A DNA stretch of 64,000 bases, taken from Streptomyces roseoverticillatus. GTDB lineage: Bacteria > Actinomycetota > Actinomycetes > Streptomycetales > Streptomycetaceae. The position numbers and the translations under genes are program-made. The DNA is taken from NCBI RefSeq assembly GCF_000719265.1, contig NZ_JOFL01000009.1, positions 1 to 64,000 on the forward strand. The letters run 5' to 3'. Positions 28,367 to 35,292 of the stretch are shown one piece after another (position 1 is the first letter of the stretch; every line of letters begins with the position of its first letter). Under the pieces are notes generated by a model. It made no database searches and was not told the DNA's origin. It was given only the letters and a program-made list of their open reading frames with translations.

Positions 28367-28472
28367 CGGAGTTGCGCTTCCCGGGCTCCGGCCGGGAGTT
28401 GTTCTTCCCGGGCTCCGGCCGGGAGTTGTTCTTCCCGTGCTCCCGCTCGGAGTTGCCCTCCCCAGCAGGTGA
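28367..28472. repeat. 27-bp tandem repeat upstream of the STAND gene
   Basis: Four degenerate copies of a 27-bp unit (GGGAGTTGTTCTTCCCGGGC plus TCCGGCC) run in tandem. The middle two are nearly identical and the outer ones are diverged. Each copy contains a short dyad (GGGA..TCCC). The array ends about 55 bases before the GTG of the STAND NTPase gene. Confidence 0.7.
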
Positions 28473-28528
28473 TCTTCCCGCTAGCGTGGTCGGGACTGCG
28501 GGGCGGGGAGAGCTGGGGGAGGCGTGCG

Positions 28529-30994
28529 GTGGATCCGTTCACGATGACGGCGGTGCTGGCGGCCGTTGACACGGCGGCGTCGGGAGCGCTGTCGGGCGCG
28601 GCGGGGGAGCTGGGGCGGCGGACGGCGGAGGGGCTGGCCGGTCTGGCCCGCCGGGCCTGGCGCAGGGACGGGGGCGGCGAGCCGCCCGCGGCCCCCACCG
28701 ACGACGGCGGACGCAGGGCGCTCGCCGCCCTGCTGATCGAACAGGCCCGCACCGAGCCCGGATTCGCCCGCGACCTGGCCTCGTGGCTCCGCGAGAGCGA
28801 GTGGCTGGCGGCGGCCACCGCCGTACCCGCGACGGACAACGGCGCGGCCCGCCCGCGGATGCTGCCGCCGCTGACGTCGGCCTTCACCGACCGCGAGGAC
28901 GTCCTGGCTGGGATCACGGCGCTGCTGGACGAGGGGGACGGCGGCGCTGACTCACGTATGGCCGCGCCCATGGCCCTGCTCGTCGGCCCCGCCGGCGTCG
29001 GCAAGACCGCGGCGGCCGTGCACTGCGCCCGCGCCCTGGCCGCCCGCTACCCGGACGGCGAGCTGTACGCCGACCTGCGCGGTTCCGCGGCGGCCACCGC
29101 CGTCACCCCGTCCGAGGTGCTCGTACGCTTCCTGCACCACCTGGGCGTGCCGGCGGACCGGGTGCCCGCCGACGAGCAGGGCCAGACCGACCTCTACCGC
29201 GAGCGCACCGCGGGCCGGCGCATGGTCGTCCTGCTCGACAACGCCCACAGCGCCGCCCAGCTCGGCCCGCTGCTGACGGCGTCGCCCACCTCGCTCGTCC
29301 TGGTCACCAGCCGCCACCGGCTGCCCGAGCTCGTCCGCGACCACGGGGCGCGGATCGTGCGGGTCGGCCCGCTGTCCGACGCCGATTCCTTCCTGCTGCT
29401 GAGCCGCGTCGCCGGCCCGGAGCGCGTCGCCGCGCAGCGCACGCACGCGGAGGCCGTGGCGGCGCGGTGCGGGGGCATACCGCTCGCGCTGTGCGAGACG
29501 GGGGCCCGGGTGCAGGTGCGGGAGCAGCTGAGCTGGGAGAGCCTGGAGCGCGAATTCGCGGCGGCGGTCGCGGGCTTGAGAGGGAGCGGGCAGGGACAGG
29601 CTCCAGGAATGCCTGATGATGCTGATGGTCTTGATGACGCTGATACCCCTGATACGTATGGGGGTGGCGATTCGCCGGTGGAACCGGCCCTCCTCGCCAC
29701 CGACCTCTCCTACCGGGACCTGCCCCCCGACGCGGCCCGCCTCTACCGGCTGCTGGCCCTGCGCCCCTGGCCGGACATCCCCGTCGGCGCCGCCGCGGCC
29801 GCGGCGGACACCGGCGAGGCCGAGGCGCGCCGCCTGCTCGAAACCCTCGCCGCGGCCCACCTCCTGGAGGAGACCGGCGAGGAGCGCTACCGCTTCCACG
29901 ACCTCGTCCGCCTCCACGCCGAGCGCCGCGCCCACGAGGAGGACGGCCGCGGGGCGACGGCTCCAGCCGTCCGCCGCACCATCACCTGGTACCTGCGGCT
30001 GGCCGCCCGCGCCGACGCCCTCGTCGTCCCCGGCCGCTGGCACCTCGGCCCCGCGTACGCCCGCACGCAGGGCGGCGACGGCCCCGCCGGCCGCACCGCG
30101 GAGGCGGCTCGCGCGGCCCTGTCCGTGCTGCGGCGCGAGCGCGCGAACCTCGCCGAGGCCGTACGGGCCGCGGAGGAGTACGGCTTCGACGAGGAGGCCT
30201 GGCAACTGTGCGAGGCCATGTGGGGTCTGCACCTGCGCCTCGGCTTCCACGACCAGTGGGTGGCCACGCACCTGCGGGGCGTCGAGGCGGCCCGCCGCTG
30301 CGCCGCCGGCATCGGCGACCCGCGGGCGGAGGGCCGGATGCGGACCCAGCTCGCCTTCGGCTACATGGGCCTCGGCCGGTACGCGGAGGCCGAGGCCCAG
30401 CTGACCGCCGCCGCGGCGGCCGACGAGCGCGCCGGCCACCACCGCGGCCGCGCCACGGCGACCGAGTCGCTGGGCCTGCTCTGCCTGCGGCAGTGGCGGT
30501 ACGAGGCCGCCGAGGAGCACTTCCGGCAGGCCCGGCGAGCCCTGGACGGCATCGCTCCGGGCGGCGACGGCGCGGCCGACGTGCCGCGCGCCGACGCGCT
30601 CCTCGCCCATCACCTCGGGCGGGCCCTGCGCGGCCAGGGCCGCCACGCCGAGGCCCTGGCCCAACTGGCGGACGCCCTCGCCCGCTTCCGGGCGCTGCCC
30701 GCCCGCGACCTCTACAACGAGGCCCGCGTCCGGATGAGCCTCGGCGAGACCCACCTGGCCGCCGGCGACCCGGCCGCGGCCCGTACGCCCCTCGACGAGG
30801 CACTGGCCGTCATGGCGGCCGAGGGCGCCGTCCTGCAACAGGCGGACGCGGCCGAACTCCGCGCCCGCTGCACCACGGACCGGGACGACGCGGTGCACCA
30901 CCTGAGCCTGGCCCACTCGCTGTACGAGGAGGTGGGCGAAGCGGCGGGCGTGTCCCGCACGGGCGCGCTTTTGCGGGAGCGGAGGGCGGGCTGA
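28529..30994 (+). CDS. STAND-type NTPase with TPR repeats (NB-ARC/TPR protein)
   Basis: An 821-residue signalling-type ATPase. Residues 1-110 are an Ala-rich helical region. Residues 112-420 are the NB-ARC-like domain with Walker A VGPAGVGKT (about 150-158), Walker B RRMVVLLDNAH (about 230-240), a sensor region LVLVTSRHRLPEL and GGIPLAL. Residues 395-490 are winged-helix-like with DVVRLHAER-type sequence (DLVRLHAERRAHEE). The rest is TPR (GYMGLGRYAEAEAQLTAAAAADERAG and later units). No SARP DNA-binding domain is present. An Asp-rich insert at about residues 360-385 is encoded by unusually AT-rich DNA. GTG at 28529 follows GGGGGAGG. Confidence 0.85.
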   Translation: MDPFTMTAVLAAVDTAASGALSGAAGELGRRTAEGLAGLARRAWRRDGGGEPPAAPTDDGGRRALAALLIEQARTEPGFARDLASWLRESEWLAAATAVPATDNGAARPRMLPPLTSAFTDREDVLAGITALLDEGDGGADSRMAAPMALLVGPAGVGKTAAAVHCARALAARYPDGELYADLRGSAAATAVTPSEVLVRFLHHLGVPADRVPADEQGQTDLYRERTAGRRMVVLLDNAHSAAQLGPLLTASPTSLVLVTSRHRLPELVRDHGARIVRVGPLSDADSFLLLSRVAGPERVAAQRTHAEAVAARCGGIPLALCETGARVQVREQLSWESLEREFAAAVAGLRGSGQGQAPGMPDDADGLDDADTPDTYGGGDSPVEPALLATDLSYRDLPPDAARLYRLLALRPWPDIPVGAAAAAADTGEAEARRLLETLAAAHLLEETGEERYRFHDLVRLHAERRAHEEDGRGATAPAVRRTITWYLRLAARADALVVPGRWHLGPAYARTQGGDGPAGRTAEAARAALSVLRRERANLAEAVRAAEEYGFDEEAWQLCEAMWGLHLRLGFHDQWVATHLRGVEAARRCAAGIGDPRAEGRMRTQLAFGYMGLGRYAEAEAQLTAAAAADERAGHHRGRATATESLGLLCLRQWRYEAAEEHFRQARRALDGIAPGGDGAADVPRADALLAHHLGRALRGQGRHAEALAQLADALARFRALPARDLYNEARVRMSLGETHLAAGDPAAARTPLDEALAVMAAEGAVLQQADAAELRARCTTDRDDAVHHLSLAHSLYEEVGEAAGVSRTGALLRERRAG

Positions 30995-31015: not shown

Positions 31016-31050
31016 TTGCGGCTTGCGGCTTGCGGCTTGCGGCTTGAGGC
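31016..31050. repeat. 7-bp tandem repeat (TTGCGGC), four perfect copies plus one variant
   Basis: TTGCGGC is repeated at 31016-31043, followed by TTGAGGC to 31050. It lies in the 190-base gap between the STAND gene and the end of the frameshifted transferase gene. About 100 bases on, a 13-bp unit (CACTACAGCTACG) is also repeated near 31157-31182. Confidence 0.75.
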
Positions 31051-31183: not shown

Positions 31184-32997
31184 CTAGACGGCCAGGCCGT
31201 CATCGTCCCGCTCGACGTCCACACCATGCCGCACCCTCCCCGTCACCACCGTGATGCCGCCCGTCACCGCCTCCTCCACGGACTTGCCGCCCGCGAGCCA
31301 TGCGTGGAGGGCGGAGGCGTGGGCCGCCGGGTCGCACAGGTCGCCCCGGCCGTCCGCGCCGGGGCGGGCGGTGAGCTGCAGCAGGTCACCGCCGCGCGTG
31401 CGGACGGTGCAGCGCCCGGGCCCCGTCACGTACACGGCGAGCGCGCAGCCCGGGTGGCGGCCGAGGACCTCCGCGGTCCAGGCGGCCGGCGGTCCGACGC
31501 GTGGGTCGTCGGCCGCCCCGTACCGCACGATCACGTCCGCGATGCGCAGCCGCCCCGGGTCGGGGGTGTCCTCGTGGACGGAGGTGTGGGCGTCCCAGCC
31601 GATGTCGTCGATGTCGTCGATGCCGGTGTCGGAGTACGGGCCGTCGTCCGTCGCGCGGCGCACCACGGCGATCTCCGGTGCGCCCGAGGCGTCGGTCAGC
31701 CGGCTGAGGACGCGGACGGGCGCCGTGCGCTCGGCCGGCGCGTACGACGGGAGCCGCAGCGGGTCGAGGAGCGCGGGCCGGCCGGCGGGCTCCGGAATGC
31801 CGATCAGGCCGTAGAACGCGCGGCGCAGGAGCGCGGCGGAGCGCCCCGGCGCGGAGCTGACGTGCTCGGCCTGGGCGCGGAAGCGGCCGGGGTCGTGGTG
31901 GCCGACGGCGTGGTCGACCTGCGCGCGCAGCCCGTCGTACGGGCGCAGCCGCGGCGCGGCCCGGCCGAGGGCGGCGACGGGCGAGCCGGGGTCGAGGGCG
32001 CCGCCGGGGAAGGCGCCGAGGAGGACGGGCCTGCCGATGGCGGCCGCGTAGTACGTGACGGAGCCGTGGTCGCCGATCACGCAGTCCGCGGCGATCAGCG
32101 CCTGCCGCCAGTCCTCCAGCGGGTCCACGAGCGCGAGCCCGGCGCGGCGGGCCCGGTCGAGCCAGGCCCGTATCTGACCGGGGCCGTGGCCGTGCCAGAT
32201 GTTGGGGTGCAGGACCGCGGCCGCGCGGTACTCGTCGGCGGGGAGCTCAGCGGCCAGCCGCGGGAGGAGGGACGGCAGCAGGTCGCCCTCGGAGTCGTCG
32301 TCGCCGAAGAGGGAGCCGGGCGACCAGGTGGAGTTGACGACGACGAGCCGCTGGCCGGGCGCGACGCCGAGGGCCCGGCGGAAGCGGTCCCGGTGGGGCA
32401 GGGCGGCGAGGATGCGGTCGTAGCAGGGGTCACCGGCGAGGACGGCGGTGCCGGCCGCCTCCGGGCAGGCGGCGCGCAGGCGGTCGAGCTGCTCGGGGTG
32501 TGAGAGGACGGTCGCGGCGGCGAGGGGCCGGCCGTCGTGGAGCAGCCAGTCGGGGGAGAGCCCGAAGACGGGGGCAGGGGCAGGGGCAGCGGGTGTCCGG
32601 TGTCCGGTGTCCGGCGTCCGGCGTCCGGCGTCCGGCGTCCGGCGTCCGGCGTCCGGCGTCCGGCGTCCGGCGTCCGGCGTCCGGCGTCCGGCGTCCGGCG
32701 TCCGGCGGCCAGGTCGACGGGCGTCTCCTTGGCCTGCTCCCAGGGCAGCACTGGCAGCCCCACGGAGGCCAGCAGCTCCGGCACTCCGGCGAGGAACGGC
32801 GACGATCCGGTGCACGTCACGAGCAGCTGCACCCGCAGGTCGTCCCGGAAGAGCGGCAGTACGTCCAGCAGCCGGGTGGCGGAGGTGACGTTGTGCACGA
32901 CGAACAGGACGCGGCGGCACGCGGCCCGGGTCACCCACCGGTGGGAGTCGTCCCCGACGGGAACCCGCAAGCGTGCCTCTGCACCTGTCCCACGCAT
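31184..32997 (-). pseudogene. CDP-glycerol glycerophosphotransferase-like protein split by a 7-bp repeat frameshift
   Basis: The N-terminal part (32997 down to about 32706) reads RVLFVVHNVTSATRLLDVLPLFRDDLRVQLLVTCTGSSPF..LPWEQAKETPVDLAA in one frame. The C-terminal part (about 32593 down to 31184) reads VFGLSPDWLLHDGRPLAAATVLSHPEQLDRLR..VIGDHGSVTYYAAAIGRPVLL in another. Together they resemble actinobacterial TagF-like or GT-B proteins of surface glycopolymer synthesis. Sixteen 7-bp repeats join them and put the halves out of frame. As I recall the family, a conserved segment with an HG-containing loop normally lies there, so a deletion may also have occurred. It may be phase-variable, a decayed gene, or an assembly error. 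Confidence 0.7.
32594..32705. repeat. 16-copy 7-bp tandem repeat inside a coding region
   Basis: Three TGTCCGG units followed by thirteen perfect CGTCCGG units, 112 bases in all. Read on the minus strand it encodes repeats of RRTPDAG. Seven is not a multiple of three, so each copy gained or lost changes the frame of the transferase-like gene. A short (GGGGCA)n tract at about 32571-32590 abuts it. Confidence 0.93.
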
Positions 32998-34725: not shown

Positions 34726-35292
34726 ATGACCCACCGCTCCCACACCGTCATCGACAGCCCGTACGGCCCCCTGACGCTGGTGGCCGCCGACGGCCGGCTC
34801 TGCGGCCTGTACATGGAAGGGCAGCGCCACCGCCCGCCCCAGGAGACCTTCGGCGCGTACGACCCGCAACCGCACGCACAGGGCTCGGTGTTCGCCCGGA
34901 CCCGCGAGCAACTGGAGGAGTACTTCGCCGGCGTCCGCACCGCCTTCGACCTCCCCCTCGCGCTCGCCGGGACCGGCTTCCAGCGCACCGTCTGGCACGC
35001 CCTCCAGGAGATCCCGTACGGGGAGACCGTCTCGTACGGCCTGCTGGCCGACCGCATCGGCCGCCCGACCGCGTCCCGGGCCGTGGGGCTGGCCAACGGC
35101 CGCAACCCCGTCGGCATCATCGTCCCCTGCCACCGCGTCGTCGGCGCGACCGGCGCCCTCACCGGTTACGGCGGCGGACTGCCCCGCAAGCAGCGCCTGC
35201 TCGCCTTCGAACGCGCAGGCAGCGCGCACGAGGAGGCATCGTGCAGCGTGTACGAGGAGGCATCATGCTGCGCGCACGAGGAGGCATCATGA
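34726..35292 (+). CDS. ogt: Methylated-DNA--protein-cysteine methyltransferase
   Basis: A 188-residue suicide repair enzyme removing O6-alkyl groups from guanine. The DNA-binding wing GTGFQRTVWHALQEIPYGETVSYG and the active site NPVGIIVPCHRVVGATGALTGYGGGLPRKQRLLAFE are typical. ATG at 34726 follows ACGGAGG. The enzyme normally ends soon after LLAFE; here a tail of three Glu-Glu-Ala-Ser-Cys-type repeats follows, encoded by a 24-bp tandem repeat. It lies 26 bases after ada-alkA. Confidence 0.94.
   Translation: MTHRSHTVIDSPYGPLTLVAADGRLCGLYMEGQRHRPPQETFGAYDPQPHAQGSVFARTREQLEEYFAGVRTAFDLPLALAGTGFQRTVWHALQEIPYGETVSYGLLADRIGRPTASRAVGLANGRNPVGIIVPCHRVVGATGALTGYGGGLPRKQRLLAFERAGSAHEEASCSVYEEASCCAHEEAS

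Follow-up and report, generated by a model that had tools for sequence, protein, structure and literature searches.

Gene Organization at the Locus

The window, i.e., the whole stretch of 64,000 nucleotides that was analysed, belongs to Streptomyces roseoverticillatus (contig NZ_JOFL01000009.1), whose genome is a 7.2 Mb draft in 96 contigs. On its minus strand, a gene is split into two frames around a tandem heptamer array, and the features considered here are the following:

28436..30994, plus strand: NB-ARC/TPR gene with a provisional start, convergent, a neighbour outside the putative switch
31016..31050, plus strand: a further short heptamer array, TTGCGGC x5, in the gap separating the two convergent genes
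31184..32590, minus strand: C-terminal part of the gene (VFGLSPDWLL...GDHGSVTYYAA...), in the other frame, open over 468 aa, with its stop at 31184
32594..32705, minus strand: heptamer array of 16 copies, 13 x CCGGACG then 3 x CCGGACA on the gene strand
32706..32707, minus strand: site of about 30 absent codons (VSASYGG...SHGVGYNKRLA in relatives) and of the absent 5' element
32707..32997, minus strand: N-terminal part of the gene (RVLFVVHNVTSATRLLDVLPLF...), in a single frame, with the ATG at 32997 as the chosen start

The sequence-only reading had placed a tract of 16 heptamers inside a coding region, and this proved exact: on the forward strand, three TGTCCGG are followed by 13 CGTCCGG at 32594–32705, and TRF reports 32595–32707 with a period of 7 and 16.1 copies. 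The longest exact period-7 run of the window reaches 99 bases, whereas no such run exceeds 19 when 100 first-order Markov sequences of equal length are generated. Frame mapping of the N and C parts also bears out that the two halves lie in different minus-strand frames, and the linker between them, whose 137 bases are not divisible by 3, agrees with the modulo-3 arithmetic of the same reading. The N parts of the orthologues listed are 62 to 97% identical, and the C part of the window gene shares 93–94% identity with that of S. klenkii (G060).

Alignment to S. klenkii shows, moreover, that a conserved mid segment already suspected to be missing is indeed absent: about 30 codons directly 5' of the array (VSASYGGELELICGDLAVLSHGVGYNKRLA), a stretch in which residues invariant in the family alignment fall. 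The window copy is an off allele, and a conserved segment is missing from it as well. Because these codons with their invariant residues are lost together with the 5' element, the allele is, judging from its sequence, probably dead at any copy number, and a change in copy number alone probably would not restore its activity, as the deletion takes out invariant residues. Decay, which had been raised as an alternative, thus holds for this copy.

Regarding the surroundings, an NB-ARC/TPR homologue lies directly downstream of the gene in 72 of the 79 loci compared. About 134 bases separate the TTGCGGC array from the point where the C part ends, and a 24-base unit is repeated three times, in frame, at the end of an O6-methylguanine-DNA methyltransferase gene (window 35219–35291).

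Protein Family and Fold

Pfam gave no match for either half of the window gene or for the in-frame relative L041, the gathering score of PF04464 (CDP-glycerol glycerophosphotransferase) not being reached; weak matches to PF04464 were obtained for 17 of 46 relatives, with a best E of 0.0074. A sequence search of solved structures gave no relative. The structure model of L041 (pLDDT 85.8) has a GT-B fold, with the array in an undefined loop of low confidence, like TagF, and its top rows in Foldseek are TarL and TagF, the wall teichoic acid polymerases, which count among the closest known systems. The motifs SHGxGYxK and LHPN resemble those of TagF, the former its histidine motif. The family is one of GT-B (TagF/TarL-like) enzymes in Streptomycetaceae, probably glycopolymer transferases.

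The Array as a Trait of the Family

A search with the C part over 295 genomes of the genus found matches in 129, and the orthologue cut-off of at least 59% identity retained 71 of the 295, including the window's genome. The best 80 of 349 relatives from the genome scan were kept as named loci and further stretches were added, giving a comparison set of 127 distinct orthologues with both parts. L030, L058 and L078, which lie at contig ends and lack an N part, were left out, as were L133 (negative gap), L160 and 20 duplicates; the partial genes L158 and L178 were kept, and L027 was counted in frame by arithmetic only. The gene of L027 (G009) is interrupted by an insertion sequence, which lies in the linker with the 5' element on one side and the heptamer array on the other.

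A tandem array of at least three copies is present in 109 of the 127 orthologues, always between ...SHGxGYxKRLA and PVFGLSPDWLL. Its unit is a 7-mer in 94, a 10-mer in nine, an 8-mer in four and a 6-mer in two, so that 107 of 109 arrays have a unit length (7, 10 or 8) that is not a multiple of three, as a contingency locus would have. The units are of 27 types, such as ACACCGG, AGCCGGG, AACACCC, AACGCCG and AACACCGGAC. The array-bearing orthologues divide into 57 in-frame and 52 out-of-frame genes, and among the 18 without an array of at least three copies 16 are in frame and two out, one of the latter (L147) having an N gap inside its array. The association between array and frame state has a Fisher p of 0.004 when kinship is ignored and is not significant on independent tree pairs (median p 0.5).

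These arrays are concentrated at the gene. Across 78 named loci, heptamer arrays of at least four copies number 58 in 13.6 kb of linkers versus three in 1.56 Mb of flanks, where period-3 arrays number 68, and none occurs in eighteen 20-kb stretches of the window's genome. At least four ACACCGG in a row are found in 14 of the 295 genomes, and 12 of these places are at the family gene by position; the other two gave no match to either half of two family members with the array left out of the query. AGCCGGG is less specific for the gene, as its arrays also occur at other Streptomyces sites away from it: two of the 20 places fetched among the matches listed are family paralogues (L218 and L205), and the other 18 gave no match to either half of two family members, the array again being excluded. 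Around L065, two more heptamer arrays of about 14 copies each, at about 1111 and 5507 in gene orientation, lie less than 9 kb from the gene.

The linker is short and does not vary in the S. olivaceus proteins listed and in most of those listed for S. antibioticus. The differing protein lengths in these two species were considered as copy-number variation and rejected, since they mostly reflect differing annotated starts, the linkers being constant except in P0062. The S. olivaceus genome with L066 carries an out-of-frame 8-mer array.

Frame States in Close Relatives

The downstream half is kept intact in the off state: the C part is open over 430–500 aa in all 54 distinct out-of-frame orthologues, and in 61 of 61 when five duplicates and two paralogues are included. 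Repeat number, whose comparison among relatives the sequence-only reading had put forward as a check, does differ between them. Among the 19 closest tree pairs, four (L104/L028, L044/L046 with a 10-mer, L121/L132 and L080/L095) are separated by exactly one array unit together with a change of frame, six have equal linkers and eight differ in another way: by more than one unit, through other indels, or because of the window's deletion (L062/L069 by 38 bases, L140/L150 by 10 and L041/L042 by 88 are examples). The remaining pair, L108/L111, was rejected as a one-unit pair once the linkers were read, as its 7-base difference is not clearly within the array.

By a motif rule, 173 of the 260 proteins listed are full length and 53 have the C part only, with 34 in neither class; P0145 retains the middle segment though it falls in the C-only class. 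Both states occur in near-identical proteins, the base differences given here being deduced from residues and not from DNA. In S. anulatus, P0129 (full length) and P0149 (C part only) have C parts that are 100% identical over 460 aa, with arrays 28 bases, or four units, apart; P0237 and P0238, from metagenome sources, are 99.8% identical over 437 aa and 7 bases, or one unit, apart. P0121 and P0124 (99.8%), both full length, differ by seven residues, or three units. In S. celluloflavus, P0151 and P0162 (98.9%) are 14 residues apart, and P0158, which shares 97.5% identity with each of them, has DAGRRTP as its unit where they have GAGSREP.

Selection on the Downstream Half

If the gene were being lost in many lineages, the array could be a neutral expansion in a dispensable loop. 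Besides the window copy, with its missing codons, L151 (out of frame without an array) and L027 with its insertion sequence agree with such a decay. The C-part dN/dS of the window also speaks for it, as the two out/out pairs that include the window have the highest values of the out/out pairs (0.31 and 0.32); against decay, the four out/out pairs without it have 0.15, 0.17, 0.22 and 0.23. The ten remaining pairs range from 0.16 to 0.33. Out-of-frame genes do not have longer terminal branches than in-frame genes (medians 0.138 and 0.128, p 0.88), the downstream half stays open in every distinct out-of-frame orthologue, and the members without an array of three copies are nearly all in frame. 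For the family as a whole, decay is unlikely. Frame changes over the tree number 40, compared to a shuffled mean of 36.2 (sd 2.6), and the frame state has no phylogenetic signal.

Other Genera and Paralogues

Across the family Streptomycetaceae, a match was obtained in 32 of 61 genomes, which represent 13 of 17 genera. Among the 20 loci fetched and compared, eight close relatives from other genera bear an array (five 7-mers, an 8-mer, a 4-mer and a weak 8-mer with 2.8 copies). Two of these are out of frame, both frame states being found here as well. In L225, GCCA x18.8 replaces the heptamers at the equivalent position, and the gene is out of frame.

Heptamers at the equivalent place are also carried by six of the paralogues fetched: L159, L165, L166, L167 and L173, which are 39–49% identical to the window C part, and L218, with a mid-gene AGCCGGG array and the 5' element as well. 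Most of the remaining paralogues fetched alongside the first five have no heptamer array. Two further repeats were noticed at gene starts: L169 begins MPRAASREPRAASREPRAAS, a seven-residue N-terminal repeat, and L205, cut by a contig end, has 19 copies of AGCCGGG just 5' of its conserved start. From their sequences, both could possibly be further slippage sites.

A Conserved Element 5' of the Array

Array-bearing genes share an element of synonymous codons just 5' of the array, of the type TTGRCC-N21-TANANT, or more fully GGYSAACT, TTGRCC, 21 bases and TA[CT]A[AC]T-AAG-AGR, overlapping the codons that precede the array. Third-position GC, about 0.9 in both halves, falls to 0.64 over the 24 codons that precede the array, compared to 0.82 in 14 array-free members. 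The codon choice is nearly uniform with respect to that expected from the C part: CAA/GAA for Q/E in 101 of 101 (16.5 expected), TTG for L in 103 of 106 (5.2), AAT/ACT for N/T in 105 of 105 (6.9) and AGG/AGA for R in 75 of 76 (2.8). The T of AAT/ACT, which is base six of TA[CT]A[AC]T, occurs in 108 of 109 members with an array, one of 14 without and one of two weak-array rows, L009 (the window) and L151 being omitted from this count. On eight independent tree pairs, T and array are concordant in about seven and opposed in none (median p 0.016).

The same holds outside the orthologues. TA[CT]AATAA[AG] accompanies all eight arrays of other genera, and AAC is found in the three array-free rows with GYNK; similarly, the six array-bearing paralogues have TA[CT]AATAA and the array-free relative L171 has AAC. 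Some array-free members retain TTG and CAA/GAA. The strict pattern occurs four times in 61 genomes, each time at the family gene by position.

A promoter is the obvious guess for this element, but its spacing is unusual: 21 bases separate TTGRCC from TANANT, more than in an ordinary sigma-70 promoter. A stem formed by the inverted repeat GGYCAACT/AGTTGRCC is not supported, because 50 of 125 rows have G-G at one of its positions; consensus folding gave zero pairs and an energy of 0 in two runs, which is possibly an artefact of the runs. The GTG of PVFG was also rejected as a separate start of the C part, with GTC in 55 and GTG in 23 and no enrichment. It is tentatively proposed that the element may be a dedicated partner of the array, for example an internal promoter or melting site with transcription starting at the array, which would re-create and destabilise the tract, with a new unit per species at the same place; the array would then be no accidental microsatellite but a maintained repeat nursery.

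Another role for these codons would be recoding, where slippage of the ribosome or RNA polymerase at or near the array yields the full protein from out-of-frame alleles, with the AAG-AGR codons and the 5' element as the signal. The strong preference for AGG/AGA and AAT/ACT before the arrays fits such a signal, but an identical element is carried by in-frame, OUT1 and OUT2 alleles, so that no single frameshift direction serves them all, and recoding is considered quite improbable. Finally, an error of assembly or sequencing in a difficult repeat, named earlier as misassembly, is very improbable for the family pattern: most genomes compared are drafts, short reads assemble such arrays poorly and the N gap of L147 falls exactly in its array, but 16 of 32 loci hand-picked on contigs longer than 4.5 Mb (L027, L133 and L158, also on such contigs, being excluded) are out of frame and 16 in frame, C-part-only proteins recur in many records and several differences are whole units.

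Proposed Mode of Switching

The locus is best read, from the sequences compared, as a conserved slippage contingency locus in free-living actinomycetes: it is likely that the GT-B family gene is an on/off switch that works by slippage through a tandem array in loop codons, the window copy being a damaged off allele. The array of 7-base units (less often 8-, 10- or 4-base) would lie in the codons of the loop that the model leaves undefined, and slipped-strand mispairing within growing populations would alter its copy number by one or a few units per step. As the unit length is not divisible by three, every such change would shift the 430–500 codons downstream into or out of the reading frame, and the enzyme would be switched on or off in a heritable and reversible way. 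The product presumably modifies a cell-wall glycopolymer, and the switch would be maintained by selection, most likely by those phages that make use of such glycopolymers. The earlier suggestion of a phase-variable glycopolymer-transferase-like locus is strongly supported at the sequence level for the gene family, by arrays, frames, pairs and dN/dS; for the window copy, with its deletion of invariant residues, decay holds as well.

If this is true, antibiotic-producing soil bacteria, where phase variation has been little considered, would have a family-wide slippage on/off switch in a probable cell-envelope enzyme. Hidden mixed populations would be predicted in laboratory and production strains, as well as a testable cause for unstable phage sensitivity. 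In addition, the adjacent element opens the question of dedicated bacterial DNA signals that maintain hypermutable repeats.

Comparison with Known Systems

In the open-licence PMC papers searched, no report of this locus was found, and PMC7015867 and PMC3711429 offered nothing usable for it. Both in-gene heptamer switching of a glycan enzyme (neuO, PMC13001214) and simple-repeat switching in Streptomyces (pglX, PMC4365076) are already known. The latter corrects the earlier statement that simple-repeat contingency loci are not a theme in Streptomyces, as pglX of S. coelicolor phase-varies through a G tract (PMC4365076). It resembles the present family in being a simple-repeat phase variation within Streptomyces; however, pglX belongs to a phage-defence system and its repeat is a G tract, unlike the heptamer in a glycopolymer enzyme here. 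The heptameric repeats of Xanthomonas and Nostoc are likewise arrays that vary in length (PMC4692102), but those are intergenic, whereas the arrays here lie inside one gene family.

The closest likeness is to neuO of E. coli K1, a phage-borne capsule O-acetyltransferase gene, where slippage in an in-gene heptanucleotide repeat sets the frame; its copy number ranges from 3 to 53 and 65.6% of 64 genomes are off (PMC13001214). Shared features are the heptamer within the coding sequence, the frame set by slippage (proposed here) and a product that modifies a surface glycan (probable here). The repeat of neuO lies in the 5' region of the gene with the single unit AAGACTC, whereas in the Streptomyces family the array is mid-gene, with 27 kinds of unit that differ between species. 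Unlike neuO, the Streptomyces family has a GT-B model, occurs in GC-rich actinomycetes with a free-living habit, and has a conserved element adjoining the array.
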